This document shows, one piece after another, positions 1-19,953 of a DNA stretch of 24,060 bases; the first letter of the stretch is position 1; every line of letters begins with the position of its first letter. Under the pieces are notes generated by a model that did not search any database, was not told the origin of the DNA, and saw only the letters and a list, made by a program, of their open reading frames with translations. The stretch is from a virus. The DNA is taken from the IMG/VR virus record IMGVR_UViG_3300028025_000179, positions 1 through 24,060 of that record, one strand, 5' to 3'. Position numbers and translations under genes: made by a program.

Positions 1-128
1 GGTTGTCCACCAACTGCTACATCATATGAGTCAGATGTATTCTGCCAGTATTGAGATGTAGATACGATACCAACATCAACAGCAATTGCTTGATTGGCAC
101 GACCTTCGGTAATGTCTCTGCCTGCTAT
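1..128 (-). CDS. 5' part of an interrupted structural-region gene; no canonical start
   Basis: The minus-strand frame reads I-A-G-R-D-I-T-E-G-R-A-N-Q-A-I-A-V-D-V-G and continues without a stop to the left edge, so only about 42 N-terminal residues are visible. I do not recognise the family; its place after the fibre genes suggests a virion protein. Between the in-frame TAG at 158-156 and the edge there is no ATG, GTG or TTG. The best placed codon is ATA at 128-126, six bases after GGAGG (139-135); ATC at 131-129 is the other option. The original start probably lies at 574, beyond the inserted HNH gene, where the same A-G-R-D residues are encoded after a GTG. The gene may therefore start at AUA, be poorly expressed, or be inactive. 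The reading frame is convincing; the start is uncertain. Confidence 0.62.
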   Translation of the reverse strand, partial: MAGRDITEGRANQAIAVDVGIVSTSQYWQNTSDSYDVAVGGQ

Positions 129-142
129 GATACACCTCCATA

Positions 143-151
143 TGGTATAAT
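143..151 (+). promoter_or_regulatory. Extended -10 promoter of the HNH gene, probably leaderless mRNA
   Basis: TGG followed by a consensus TATAAT (146-151) forms an extended -10 element. The ATG begins seven bases after the hexamer, at 158, which is where transcription would normally start. No Shine-Dalgarno lies before the ATG on the plus strand. The region 17 bases upstream (around 123-128) has no good -35, as is usual for extended -10 promoters. This fits a leaderless transcript for a solitary gene facing against the surrounding operon. Confidence 0.6.
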
Positions 152-157
152 TTAACT

Positions 158-592
158 ATGAAAATTTGTATTGATTGTAAACTTGAACTACCACATTCTA
201 AATTTTATATTAGAAATAATAGAAAAATTCGCATTGAATCTAGATGTAAAGACTGTGCTTCTATTAAAAAGAAACAATACCGTTTGAATAATAAAGAAAT
301 GATTCGTGCTCAAAATAAACGCAGAGTTCCTGGTTGGGATATTGATAGGTACAACGAATATTTAAAACTTCAAGAAGGTAAATGTGGTATATGTGGCACT
401 ACTAAATATACCAATAAAGATTGGTGTGCTGACCACGACCACGCTACTAACCAGCCTAGAGGATTACTTTGTGGTAGATGTAATGCTGGACTGGGATACT
501 TCAAGGATAACCCTGAGTATCTCCAGTCAGCCATTGACTACTTAAAGAAGTGGCAGTCAATCACGACCAGCCACAGTGCTCCTTTAAATTAG
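158..592 (+). CDS. HNH homing-type endonuclease, recombination endonuclease VII family
   Basis: This 144-aa protein has the zinc-binding and catalytic pattern of endonuclease VII-type HNH nucleases. Cysteine pairs lie at 4/7 and 30/33 and again at 76/79 and 105/108. The core D-H-D-H is at 92-95, followed by the family signature R-G-L-L-C-x-x-C-N (101-109) and the helical tail D-N-P-x-x-L-x-x-A-x-x-Y-L. Family members resolve branched DNA or act as stand-alone homing nucleases. It is the only plus-strand gene in the window and has its own extended -10 promoter. Its last eleven codons lie antisense to the RBS and GTG start of the neighbouring minus-strand gene. That points to insertion into the gene, with the C-terminus (about 134-144) borrowed from the target. 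The family call is firm; mobility is inferred. Confidence 0.9.
   Translation: MKICIDCKLELPHSKFYIRNNRKIRIESRCKDCASIKKKQYRLNNKEMIRAQNKRRVPGWDIDRYNEYLKLQEGKCGICGTTKYTNKDWCADHDHATNQPRGLLCGRCNAGLGYFKDNPEYLQSAIDYLKKWQSITTSHSAPLN
557..585 (-). other. Fossil RBS and start of the gene split by the HNH insertion
   Basis: On the minus strand AAAGGAG (585-579) is followed after four bases by GTG GCT GGT CGT GAT and then TGA (559-557), a five-codon reading frame M-A-G-R-D. The previous fibre gene ends at 602, so this is where the next gene of the operon should start. The same residues A-G-R-D reappear at 125-114, leading into I-T-E-G-R and the long frame at the left edge. All four of those codons differ there at synonymous positions (GCA GGC AGA GAC). 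I read this as the displaced 5' end of the left-edge gene. Confidence 0.65.
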
Positions 593-601
593 AAATTAAA
601 A

Positions 602-1357
602 TTAACCTACAACTACTACAACGATTCCAGAACCACCTGTATAGGAGTTGGTGCTTCCAGCGCCTGATGCTCCATTTCCAGTATTTGCCGTACCATTTGC
701 ATTTGTCGTACTTGAACCACCCACAGCATAGGTAACTGAAGTGCCAGTAATTGAATAACTTAGACCAGCACCACCATTGCTACCAGAAGCAACACCTCCA
801 GCACCACCACCGCCACCGCCATTTGTACCATTTGAAGAACCATTATATCCCTGACCTGGAGTACCTAGTCCACCTTGTCTAGAACCACCACCGCCACGTC
901 CACCACCGCCACCACTTCCACCTGTTGCGCCTGCTGAACCGTCAGCACCAGAAGGACCACCTTTGCCGCCTCCACCGCCACCAAATGCAATTAAATTTCC
1001 AAGTGCGCTACTTTCTCCATTTTTTGATGGACCGTGTTCTCCCCAAAATGAACTTCCACCTGCGCCTACAGTAACAGTAAGTGTTCCAGCGGGAAGAAAT
1101 TGACTTGCAGAATAAATTAATCCACCCGCACCAGCACCATAACATTCACTGGCTTGACCACCACCACCTGCTGCTCCTCCACCACCAACTATAAGCACTT
1201 CGGCTGTTCCTGCAGTACCAATAGTAATATCGCCAGAACTAGTAAACTTATAAATAGTTTTACCAGCACGAGATGAAGTATCAACGGTTGCTCCAGTATT
1301 AGCAGTTACAGTAGCCTTACTAATTCCTCCTGCGGATACGGGTGTAAACAATGGCAT
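602..1357 (-). CDS. Glycine-rich tail adhesin-like protein
   Basis: This 251-aa protein begins with a short beta-type segment (about 17-57, including T-I-Y-K-F-T-S-S-G-D-I-T-I), followed by a long region (58-243) dominated by runs of glycine with Ser, Ala and Asn. It ends in G-G-S-G-I-V-V-V-V-V-G. Such glycine-rich blocks occur in phage receptor-binding proteins; in the T-even type gp38 adhesin they pack as polyglycine helices. It is a paralogue of the 433-aa glycine-rich protein at 2360-3661. The start has AAGGAG five bases upstream, and that element overlaps the stop of the preceding gene. The role is probably host-surface recognition at the tip of a fibre, inferred from composition and neighbours. 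Confidence 0.75.
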   Translation of the reverse strand: MPLFTPVSAGGISKATVTANTGATVDTSSRAGKTIYKFTSSGDITIGTAGTAEVLIVGGGGAAGGGGQASECYGAGAGGLIYSASQFLPAGTLTVTVGAGGSSFWGEHGPSKNGESSALGNLIAFGGGGGGKGGPSGADGSAGATGGSGGGGGRGGGGSRQGGLGTPGQGYNGSSNGTNGGGGGGAGGVASGSNGGAGLSYSITGTSVTYAVGGSSTTNANGTANTGNGASGAGSTNSYTGGSGIVVVVVG

Positions 1358-7279: not shown

Positions 7280-8029
7280 CTATCTAGGTGTAATGATTTT
7301 CTTATCAGGGGTGATAAGTTTTGACTTAGGCTCTTCCTTAGGTTTACCAAAGAATGCGTTGTAATAATGTTCATCAAATGAGAACCGCTTCATATGTGGG
7401 GCTAATGCACCAGTATGAGCATATAGTGGAATCTCTGCTTTATCGCATAGGGCAAAGAAAAATATATCTTCACCTATAAACTTAGTTCCTCTACCCATTT
7501 CCATAAATACTTGTCCATCTTGAGATGCTTCACGAACCTTTGGTACGATACTGCGGTGCATTAATACAAATCCCATACCCGCCGCATCAACCTTAATTAG
7601 TTGATTTACTGGCATTGGGTGAACTCTGGTTAATCCAAATCCACCCTCATCTCCAACTATAAAGTTAAAAATTGTAGGCATTGGAATCATTAAAGGTTCT
7701 TCTGGATTATCTGTAGTAAAATATACTCCAGTAATAATTGGACGCTTTTCAGCATCTTTGTTATCCCATAATAATTTAAATTTCTCTGGACTAATTACTA
7801 CATCTGAATCTACCCATAGTAGCCATTCATAATCAGTCTTGTCATACCAGTAATCAATTACTGTTTGTCGCTGTCTAGCAATTTGATTGCCTTGACTACG
7901 TAATGATGTGGAAAATTGTATGCCAGACTTTAATATTACATCTGTTACACCTTGCATAAACTTACCATCAACCATACCGTTGTCACACCATACGATGGCT
8001 ATACTGTCTTTTGTCCCCTTGGTACTCAT
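7280..8029 (-). CDS. GT-A fold (family 2-like) glycosyltransferase
   Basis: The 249-aa protein has a nucleotide-sugar-binding type N-terminus (S-I-A-I-V-W-C-D-N-G, about 9-18) and the metal-binding D-x-D motif as W-V-D-S-D-V-V (72-78). A conserved A-A-G-M-G-F-V-L-M stretch (149-157) and an acidic G-E-D-I-F-F-F motif (186-192) follow, typical of GT-A family 2-like enzymes. It is soluble, with no membrane segment. An enzyme inside a structural operon could glycosylate capsid or fibre proteins, or host surface sugars; the acceptor is unknown. I chose ATG at 8029, just after the previous stop (TAAAATG). A GTG at 8065 would add 12 residues but overlaps the previous gene and has no RBS. Confidence 0.75.
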   Translation of the reverse strand: MSTKGTKDSIAIVWCDNGMVDGKFMQGVTDVILKSGIQFSTSLRSQGNQIARQRQTVIDYWYDKTDYEWLLWVDSDVVISPEKFKLLWDNKDAEKRPIITGVYFTTDNPEEPLMIPMPTIFNFIVGDEGGFGLTRVHPMPVNQLIKVDAAGMGFVLMHRSIVPKVREASQDGQVFMEMGRGTKFIGEDIFFFALCDKAEIPLYAHTGALAPHMKRFSFDEHYYNAFFGKPKEEPKSKLITPDKKIITPR

Positions 8030-8030
8030 T

Positions 8031-8288
8031 TTACCATTTAACCTTGTCCGCCCAGTAGGCTGCACTCATTTTACCTTTAGCAATATTCTTAGCGTGACGT
8101 GCTTTGAATGATTTCTGACGAGCAGTTGGTTTCTTGTCGCCAGTTACACCCTGTTGTCCAAATCGGATTGTCTTTACTTTATCTCCGACTTTAGCCACAA
8201 CTACGTGTGATTTCTCAGGATGGTTAGGCGTGCGCTTTGGCTTATTAAAGCCAGACACTCCTGCTCTTTTAAGTCTTGGGTCTTTCAT
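8031..8288 (-). CDS. Small basic conserved phage protein
   Basis: The 85-aa product starts M-K-D-P-R-L-K-R-A-G-V-S-G-F-N-K-P-K and includes K-S-H-V-V-V-A-K-V-G-D-K-V-K-T-I-R-F-G-Q-Q-G, then R-H-A-K-N-I-A-K-G-K-M-S-A-A-Y-W-A and a C-terminal W-A-D-K-V-K-W. The pattern is one I have seen in other phage and environmental genomes without an assigned function. It is strongly basic and may bind nucleic acid. It is last in the run of six tiny genes; its ATG overlaps the previous stop as ATGA, and the glycosyltransferase starts just after its own stop. Confidence 0.8.
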   Translation of the reverse strand: MKDPRLKRAGVSGFNKPKRTPNHPEKSHVVVAKVGDKVKTIRFGQQGVTGDKKPTARQKSFKARHAKNIAKGKMSAAYWADKVKW

Positions 8289-8440
8289 TTCTTTTTCCTT
8301 GCAACTGCAGCATTATCTACTAGGTTTGGATAAGGTCTACCAGCCTTCTTGGCTCTAGCCTTAGCAGCAGATTTTTGTGCTGGTGTTAATTTTTTAGAAG
8401 TTTTCTTAGGATTCTTTTTGTCCCAAAATGCTTTTTTCAT
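8285..8440 (-). CDS. Tiny Lys-rich phage protein (51 aa)
   Basis: The product starts M-K-K-A-F-W-D-K-K-N-P and contains K-L-T-P-A-Q-K-S-A-A-K-A-R-A-K-K-A-G-R, then P-Y-P-N-L-V-D-N and a K-K-K end. Fifteen of 51 residues are lysine. The central L-T-P-A-Q-K-x-x-A-K-A-R-A-x-x-A-G-R-P-Y-P-N-L-V-D-N block recurs in small phage proteins I recall, with no known function. Its ATG overlaps the previous TGA (ATGA) and has AAGGAG upstream; its TGA in turn overlaps the next ATG. The overlaps and the good RBS support it as real. Confidence 0.75.
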   Translation of the reverse strand: MKKAFWDKKNPKKTSKKLTPAQKSAAKARAKKAGRPYPNLVDNAAVARKKK

Positions 8441-8580
8441 TTGCTCTCCTTAATTACTTCTTTTGTCTTAGGGTCAAGGCGAACCTTTTCAGAACCGTCT
8501 TTACGAAGAATCACAACCATACCGTCCCGCATAATTGACTTATTCCAACCGTCGTGACGTTTACGTTGACCCGATGACAT
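8437..8580 (-). CDS. Tiny basic phage protein (47 aa)
   Basis: The product reads M-S-S-G-Q-R-K-R-H-D-G-W-N-K-S-I-M, then R-D-G-M-V-V-I-L-R-K-D-G-S, and ends in a charged tail. It looks like a small beta hairpin (M-V-V-I-L-R-K-D-G) flanked by basic residues. The function is unknown. Its ATG shares a base with the previous TAA (TAATG), and its TGA overlaps the next ATG. It lacks a clear RBS of its own, so it probably depends on translational coupling to the gene before it. It is supported mainly by its exact place in a chain of overlapping genes. Confidence 0.65.
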   Translation of the reverse strand: MSSGQRKRHDGWNKSIMRDGMVVILRKDGSEKVRLDPKTKEVIKESK

Positions 8581-8741
8581 TACTTTTTCTTCTTCTTTGA
8601 CATCCCAGCCTGAGATAGTGCAATCGCAACTGCTTGCTTCTTAGACTTGACCATCTTCTTTGATTTACCAATGTTAAGAGTTCCTGCTTTGTACTCTTTC
8701 ATAACCTTAGAAATCTTTTTCTTTGCTGCTGCTTTTTTCAT
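8580..8741 (-). CDS. Tiny Lys-rich protein resembling DUF6496
   Basis: The 53-aa product starts M-K-K-A-A-A-K-K-K-I-S-K-V-M-K-E-Y-K-A-G-T-L, continues S-K-K-Q-A-V-A-I-A-L-S-Q-A-G-M, and ends in five lysines. Nineteen of 53 residues are lysine. The pattern V-M-x-E-[YF]-K-x-G-x-L followed by K-Q-A-[VI]-A-I-A-L-S-x-A is what I recall for DUF6496, a family of small proteins in phages and bacteria with no known role. Start and stop both overlap the neighbouring genes as TAATG. It could bind DNA or RNA or act inside the capsid, which is speculation. Confidence 0.75.
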   Translation of the reverse strand: MKKAAAKKKISKVMKEYKAGTLNIGKSKKMVKSKKQAVAIALSQAGMSKKKKK

Positions 8742-8968
8742 TATGGTCTTCTCCCTGCGCTAGGAGCGATTTTGGTTTCAGGAATAAACATTCCTGGGTA
8801 CTTCTTTTCAATTGCTTTCTTAGCAGCAGCCTCGGCTGCAGCCACACCCTTTGGAGATATTTCATTTTGCAACTTTTTCATCTCTTTTTGAGCCTTGGCT
8901 CTTGCAATCATATCTTTGACATAATTAGGGTCACCAGCACCAACACGTTTAATTTCACGGGAAGCCAT
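8741..8968 (-). CDS. Small charged helical protein (75 aa)
   Basis: The product starts M-A-S-R-E-I-K-R-V-G-A-G-D-P-N-Y-V-K-D-M-I-A-R-A and continues with a long helix rich in Lys, Glu and Ala (A-Q-K-E-M-K-K-L-Q-N-E-I, then A-A-A-E-A-A-A-K-K-A-I-E-K-K). It ends in a Pro-containing tail S-A-G-R-R-P. It is less basic than its neighbours and may form a coiled coil. The ATG lies one base after the previous TAA, and its own TAA overlaps the next ATG. No function is recognised. It belongs to the run of small basic genes downstream of the capsid gene. Confidence 0.7.
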   Translation of the reverse strand: MASREIKRVGAGDPNYVKDMIARAKAQKEMKKLQNEISPKGVAAAEAAAKKAIEKKYPGMFIPETKIAPSAGRRP

Positions 8969-8969
8969 A

Positions 8970-9140
8970 TTACTTCTTCTTACCCATTTTTTTCATAGTC
9001 ATCTTTTTCATACCCATTTTGGCTTCCATTGCTTTTTCTTTTTTGGATTCCATCTTTTCACCTGCTTTATAAGCAGCCTTTTTAGCAGCAGCCTTTCCCT
9101 TGGCTGTGTATGGGAATTTCTTGTTTCCTACTTTTGGCAT
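8970..9140 (-). CDS. Tiny Lys/Met-rich protein (56 aa)
   Basis: The product starts M-P-K-V-G-N-K-K-F-P-Y-T-A-K-G-K-A-A-A-K-K-A and ends with M-x-M-K-K-M repeats and K-K-K. Twenty of 56 residues are lysine and eight are methionine. Its ATG overlaps the stop of the Cys-rich gene before it (TAATG), and the following gene starts one base after its own stop. Such composition recalls histone-like or protamine-like tails, but no family is recognised. Comparable tiny F-P-Y-T-x-K-G-K-x-A-A proteins occur in other aquatic phages as far as I recall. Confidence 0.7.
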   Translation of the reverse strand: MPKVGNKKFPYTAKGKAAAKKAAYKAGEKMESKKEKAMEAKMGMKKMTMKKMGKKK

Positions 9141-19410: not shown

Positions 19411-19953
19411 CTACTTAATTTTTCTAGGTTGTTCTTTTGATATGTATGGTCCTGAAGTAAATGCAGTTAATTTAGATGCAATTTCCATTGCTTCATAAGC
19501 ATCTGCTCCTGCGTGTATAGCACCTAATGCGTATGGTGCTCCAGAACCCGCAGCATAAACTCCATCTGCAGATTTGCTTATAGATAATTCTTGGTCAATA
19601 TCAAATATCTCTCCACCAACAGCCATAATAAACTGAAAGCGAGTTTCTTTTGTATCCTCATCAAAGTTATAACCATTCTCTGTCATACATTTACGAAGAG
19701 ATGGCATTGCCTTTTTAATCATAAAACGATAAAGGTCTTCTCTGTCTTGCCTTGTAGGAATAGGTGATTCCCAAATATGCTGTGCAATATCGCAAGGTAA
19801 TGTTTCGCCAGAACCTGCAATTAAAAATGAACCATTTGCTGTAATCTTTTCAACTTCAGGATGCGTATAAATACGTCCACCCTCATCAGTTGTTTGGCTA
19901 TCTGCAACCAAGAAACAACGGTCTTTATGTTCTAAACCAATTATTGTTGTCAT
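19411..19953 (-). CDS. HslV/20S-type Ntn-hydrolase, candidate prohead maturation protease
   Basis: The 180-aa protein aligns by eye with HslV and proteasome beta subunits. It begins M-T-T-I-I-G-L, so removal of Met exposes the threonine nucleophile. An A-D-S-Q motif puts Asp at mature position 17, as in HslV. Lys at mature position 35 (E-V-E-K-I) corresponds to catalytic Lys33. The segment F-L-I-A-G-S-G-E is at 43-50, and A-A-G-S-G-A-P-Y-A-L-G-A at 134-145 matches the G-S-G-x-P-Y-A region of HslV. It lies between portal and scaffold/capsid genes, where phages usually encode a head maturation protease. No HslU-type ATPase gene is in the window. The fold call is strong; the role is inferred. 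The ATG has AGGGG close upstream. Confidence 0.8.
   Translation of the reverse strand: MTTIIGLEHKDRCFLVADSQTTDEGGRIYTHPEVEKITANGSFLIAGSGETLPCDIAQHIWESPIPTRQDREDLYRFMIKKAMPSLRKCMTENGYNFDEDTKETRFQFIMAVGGEIFDIDQELSISKSADGVYAAGSGAPYALGAIHAGADAYEAMEIASKLTAFTSGPYISKEQPRKIK

Follow-up and report, generated by a model that had tools for sequence, protein, structure and literature searches.

A conserved phage virion gene, probably a tail gene, is interrupted within its first codons near one end of the window (the entire 24,060-base IMG/VR virus record), and we propose that the interrupting element is a homing cassette carrying a cleavage-resistant rescue 5′ end for that gene. We put the probability of this reading at roughly 0.77. 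The mobile cassette would have homed into codons 5/6 of the gene; it would comprise an antisense Endonuclease VII-type gene, expressed from its own leaderless promoter, and behind it a new ribosome-binding site and rewritten first codons. In relatives without the nuclease, the probable site of cutting is the intact start (around GTGGCTGGTCGTGAT|ATNACCGAAGG); donor-templated repair would then paste nuclease and rescue tip together into the cut allele, and the probable tail gene would go on working with its product in one piece. Most synonymous positions in the tip differ from those in the target, and the tip itself probably escapes cutting for this reason. The start codon falls within the rewritten stretch; AUA (AUC in sister genomes) is the most likely start of the rescued gene, with an extended Shine-Dalgarno sequence supporting initiation. 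We infer the cleavage specificity, the resistance of the tip and AUA/AUC initiation from sequence comparisons.

The split gene lies on the minus strand, downstream from a gene for a glycine-rich protein (602-1357, minus strand; ORF of 251 aa; Gly_rich_2, E=6.9e-8). Its original Shine-Dalgarno sequence, AAAGGAG, was left behind at 579-585, where AAGGAGCACT is identical to the sequence preceding the GTG of the empty sister locus L119. It is followed by a remnant of the original first five codons, GTG GCT GGT CGT GAT (560-574, start codon at 574-572), identical in L119 and in many nuclease-free loci, and by a TGA (557-559) that closes the mini-frame. The codons for A-G-R-D occur again at 125-114 as GCA GGC AGA GAC and continue with ITEGRANQAIAVDVG into the remainder of the gene (ITEGRANQ..., 1-113, minus strand), which runs off the contig end; as the window is the whole virus record, the target gene is visible for 42 codons only. 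This second copy has its own extended Shine-Dalgarno sequence, GGAGGTG (133-139, minus strand), of the leader type associated with AUA/AUC starts, a putative AUA start codon (126-128) and a rewritten rescue tip, codons 1-8, ATA GCA GGC AGA GAC ATT ACC GAA (105-128). Between the copies, on the plus strand, lies the 144-aa HNH homing endonuclease gene (158-592), antisense to the structural genes and preceded by an extended −10 element, TGG-TATAAT (143-151). The preliminary description had recorded the two copies, the 446-base insert that is not a multiple of three, the synonymous differences in all four A-G-R-D codons and the nuclease gene with its own promoter, and all of these are present in the sequence. 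The last codons of the HNH gene (557-592) are the antisense of the remnant and its Shine-Dalgarno sequence (SITTSHSAPLN); conservation of the remnant may thus partly reflect nuclease coding.

To find relatives, we searched public viral contigs using the nuclease, the proteins encoded by the neighbouring and downstream genes and a DNA pattern of the start region; a DNA search of named phages returned no close relative of the split-gene region. The sequence previously predicted for the intact junction was recovered: in nuclease-free relatives (L002, L003, L010, L119 and many more) the gene starts GTG-GCT-GGT-CGT-GAT and continues directly with ATT/ATA-ACC-GAA-GG, preceded by a normal Shine-Dalgarno sequence. 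The nearest nuclease-free relative, L119, shares its first 15 gene bases with the window remnant. Compared with the second copy of the window, it differs at 8 of the first 18 bases (gene positions 1, 3, 6, 9, 10, 12, 15 and 18) and at 0 of the following 110, and in BLAST alignments the flanks are contiguous in L119, whereas the insert lies between them in the window. A second clean pair is formed by L371 (empty) and L379 (filled), with flanks 97% and 95% identical; here the cassette entered an AUC-start allele, leaving an AUC remnant and carrying a GTG tip. The nuclease is thus optional at a fixed site in near-identical genomes. The split-gene reading of the preliminary description is supported by the joined sequence in nuclease-free relatives. 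That description overlooked the AUA start of the second copy.

Altogether, 24 distinct nuclease-bearing sites were found on independent contigs, every one at the start of the target gene. The recurrence of this layout, together with the joined sequence in nuclease-free relatives, shows that it is not due to chance; an assembly artefact is ruled out by its presence on so many independent contigs. These sequence comparisons show insertion of the nuclease gene into the first codons of the target. The nuclease is antisense at all filled sites but L062 (3971-4409), where it lies in the sense orientation, its zinc domain fused in frame to the first codons of the target (VATRDI-EFTHRTC...), and the target restarts at a new, rewritten ATG copy; this is an independent insertion. 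The remnant is absent from L065, L067, L069, L070, L073 and L074 and mutated in L055 and L056. In the neighbourhood of the site, the window matches L056 and L060 (85-87% identity) solely between a point just ahead of the remnant and one just past the tip; the immediate flanks could not be aligned in this comparison. Since homology near the site is confined to the cassette, these alignments indicate that the cassette has moved between genetic backgrounds, independently of the flanking genes.

The nuclease matches Endonuclease_7 (E=2.5e-20) and phrog_2633 (endonuclease VII), and its nearest solved relatives by sequence are Hpy99I and T4 endonuclease VII. Together with these Pfam and PDB matches, the motifs CX2-4C, D-H-x-H and CX2C-N identify it as an Endonuclease VII-motif homing endonuclease: C76/C79, D92 H93 H95 and C105 C108 N109 are invariant in nine aligned members. 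The AlphaFold model was poor (pTM 0.38). Purifying selection on the nuclease is indicated by dN/dS values between 0.04 and 0.29. In 18 of 18 relatives the nuclease start codon follows a −10-like element at a distance of 5-7 nt, in 13 of them a perfect TATAAT, and in the window the spacing to the ATG is 6 nt; no Shine-Dalgarno sequence precedes the start in any of the 18 nuclease genes examined. A −10 element directly before the start codon points to a leaderless mRNA, so the nuclease transcript is probably leaderless. Leaderless mRNAs are common in actinobacteria. Indirect evidence for an actinobacterial host comes from the target protein, which has relatives in Streptomyces phages and on a contig assigned by binning to an uncultured actinobacterium.

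The near copy had been described as recoded, and comparison with relatives bore this out. At filled sites, codons 1-6 carry 4-8 differences in 18 bases (mean 6.0, n=21) when compared with the closest relative lacking the nuclease; nuclease-free pairs with body divergence of up to 20% show on average 0.75-1.3 differences in the same codons. The Arg codon is CGG or AGG in 7 of 22 nuclease-bearing tips versus none of 148 nuclease-free sites, and CGT in none of the tips versus 113 of the nuclease-free sites. Codon 6 is not Ile in 7/22 tips (Leu and Val being seen) versus 2/148 nuclease-free sites, and codon 8 is not Glu in 5/22 versus 3/148. The tip thus diverges systematically from the target sequence in nuclease-bearing genomes, which would fit a genome that resists its own nuclease. 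Rewriting covers codons 1-8, and codons 6-8 were changed though they are not duplicated, a pattern that favours escape from a recognition site straddling the insertion point over avoidance of a repeat. The Arg codon of the tip differs from that of its own remnant in 16 of 16 cases, whereas 61% of nuclease-free pairs share it; inspection of the table showed its third base to differ every time, as against 38% of nuclease-free pairs. Re-pairing of tips and remnants was significant for the Arg codon (P=0.004) but not for the five codons taken together (P=0.08) or for the start codon (P=0.33); all p-values in this study are inflated by the relatedness of sequences and contigs and are indicative only.

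The second copy in the window has no ATG, GTG, TTG or CTG in frame between an upstream in-frame TAG, which closes the frame, and ATA 128-126, the sole near-cognate start at normal spacing after GGAGGTG. In scans not chosen by start codon, AUA or AUC starts occurred at 12 of 22 nuclease-bearing sites versus 2 of 148 sites without the nuclease (Fisher 6e-11, to be read as indicative). ATA was seen only together with the nuclease (0 of the 148 nuclease-free sites). Many tips in other nuclease lineages keep ATG or GTG, and the AUA/AUC label requires at least two changes on the nuclease tree. A targeted scan revealed seven more AUC loci in which no nuclease was detected; for one of them, L373, the upstream sequence is too short to judge. 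AUC would therefore be a standing alternative start in the gene family rather than solely a product of the nuclease, and the idea that AUA/AUC starts are due to the nuclease alone is weakened accordingly. GGAGGTG-type leaders repeatedly carry AUH starts, with variants in L227 (AGAGGTGTGCC) and L230 (GGAGCGTGTACC); an AUH start with ordinary short Shine-Dalgarno spacing was not found anywhere in the viral collection. Promoter constraint was rejected as the cause, since AUA/AUC starts persist in L055, L058 and L069, whose nuclease promoters are situated at a distance from the start codon. Across the target gene, lineage pairs having only AUA/AUC gave dN/dS values of 0.10-0.23, a sign at the sequence level that these genes are under strong purifying selection. 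The lack of another in-frame start, this selection and the Shine-Dalgarno association all point to initiation of the rescued gene at AUA/AUC.

Side observations concern the nuclease-free loci. In L366-L371, L227 and L230 a tail-type gene has AUC as its only plausible start behind a GGAGGTG-like leader, and these genes are likely miscalled by gene finders. The nuclease-free start of L227 (1501-1530) is a hybrid, with codons 1-5 resembling the window-type tip and codons 7-9 (ACG GAC GGC) the L059-type tip, and looks like the trace of successive nuclease invasions.

Other explanations were weighed against the proposed homing with rescue. The tip might have belonged naturally to another allele as its 5′ end and been passively co-converted with the nuclease in the absence of selection for escape. 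The same GGAGGTGTGCC leader does occur in front of nuclease-free TTG and AUC alleles, and L367 has nearly the tip of L055. Such AUC alleles (L227, L230, L366-L371) speak against homing with rescue insofar as some tips may have been taken over from natural alleles and not selected as recodings, so that what we call recoded may in part be a naturally different allele; L379, where an AUC remnant is paired with a GTG tip, runs the opposite way. However, tips commonly show states that are unseen or rare in the 148 nuclease-free sites (ATA, Arg CGG/AGG, Leu/Val at codon 6), and the Arg codon of every tip differs from that of its own target. We thus regard purely passive conversion as rather unlikely. 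Divergence of the copies might instead have been selected for stability, as identical direct repeats (the copies are 15-base repeats about 450 bases apart) would permit recombinational deletion of the nuclease gene, of which L230 could be a product. This is improbable, given that unduplicated codons 6-8 are rewritten too and that the L069 group retains a rewritten tip but no remnant.

Two further explanations deny the second copy its start. Translation might begin at the out-of-frame ATG at 141 (ATG GAG GTG, 13 bases upstream of the ATA of the window) and shift frame, or the gene might be dead. That ATG is missing in L057, L227 and L366-L369, which led us to reject the frameshift, and the purifying selection between AUA/AUC-only lineages makes either version very improbable. 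Least credible of all, and rejected, is that the insert is spliced out or bypassed by ribosomes, as a group I/II intron or in the manner of T4 gene 60, so that the GTG remnant would be linked with ATT-ACC. The joined exons would indeed make the intact gene, and the stop directly after the remnant recalls the take-off site of the T4 gene 60 bypass, which likewise has a stop codon directly after it. However, the Rfam search yielded no intron, only one chance match (E=0.86); the remnant is missing or mutated at the loci listed above, those lacking it contradicting such a joining outright, and the second copy has its own Shine-Dalgarno sequence and a conserved A-G-R-D with varying third bases. A 446-base insert whose gene lies on the opposite strand, with a stop codon after the remnant, does not correspond to an intein either. 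Homing with rescue is the reading that we retain. A wider proposal, which we advance tentatively and at somewhat less than even odds, is that homing nucleases drive lineages through successive, mostly synonymous rewrites of the initiation region, including swaps between NTG and AUA/AUC, as a natural home-and-rescue drive; nuclease-free AUC starts would then be escape alleles or invasion scars. Under this proposal, nuclease recognition is predicted to depend strongly on the third position of codon 4.

The target protein, about 730 aa long in relatives, belongs to phrog_11667, of unknown function, and a Pfam search gave no match above the cut-off. Its structural model is of moderate quality (pTM 0.57), reliable at about residues 130-530, and shows a beta-propeller whose best PDB fold matches are Sf6 gp8 and P22 tail complex proteins. 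As the TM-scores are low and beta-propellers common, the model allows only a tentative assignment as a tail hub or nozzle-like protein; the gene is probably essential. Elsewhere on the minus strand of the window, a possible family 2 glycosyltransferase (7280-8065; E=0.0064, below the cut-off) lies amid structural genes, the structural operon includes a run of small lysine-rich ORFs of 51-75 aa (8285-9140), and a gene at 19411-19953, adjoining a portal-like gene, shows a weak, sub-threshold match to proteasome-type Ntn-hydrolases and might encode a prohead protease.

The arrangement resembles intronless homing by the free-standing endonucleases SegF and MobE of T4-like phages, in which an optional nuclease by or in a critical phage gene cuts nuclease-free relatives and co-converts the flanks (PMC2988022). 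It differs from them in that the nuclease lies within the first codons and the cassette brings a new Shine-Dalgarno sequence, a start codon and rewritten codons. Where a phage homing nuclease splits a gene, two polypeptides are the usual outcome, as with the two-piece proteins of Aeh1 nrdA and T4 gene 60 (PMC2988022). F-CphI of cyanophage S-PM2, a free-standing Endonuclease VII-motif enzyme that cuts a conserved gene of related phages, shares the catalytic motif (CxxC, D-H-x-H, CxxC-N) with the window nuclease; its own target is protected by an intron (PMC6083498), whereas protection in the window would come from the rewritten gene start. Mobile ORFs of fungal mitochondria that replace 3′ gene ends (Allomyces atp6; Glomus atp6, atp9, cox2 and nad3; PMC3630166) likewise combine a homing gene in an essential gene, a divergent replacement end and the native end as a relic. 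Those ORFs replace the 3′ (C-terminal) end, whereas in the phage cassette the displaced and divergently replaced end is the 5′ one, with about 5-8 codons and a new translation start. The synthetic home-and-rescue drive HomeR places a nuclease in an essential target gene together with a rescue segment (PMC7968924); it is an engineered Cas9 system in insects, the phage cassette being natural and much smaller. The pairing of a weak start codon with an extended Shine-Dalgarno sequence is also found in Staphylococcus aureus, where AUA/AUU starts give about 10-30% of AUG expression (PMC13009471). Those are bacterial genes; here the gene is a phage virion gene, the weak start is apparently linked to a nuclease, and AUC is used besides AUA. 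Among the open-access papers searched, we came across none that describes a 5′ rescue in which the start codon is altered, although prior reports may exist.

If the proposed mechanism is true, the cassette is a compact natural counterpart of engineered recoded-rescue drives, and a selfish nuclease can occupy a probably essential gene with neither intron nor intein, since the start that it brings along resists cleavage. Many matched natural alleles are available for testing how the nuclease recognizes the coding start. Virion genes apparently translated from AUA or AUC, as in this family, would escape gene callers.
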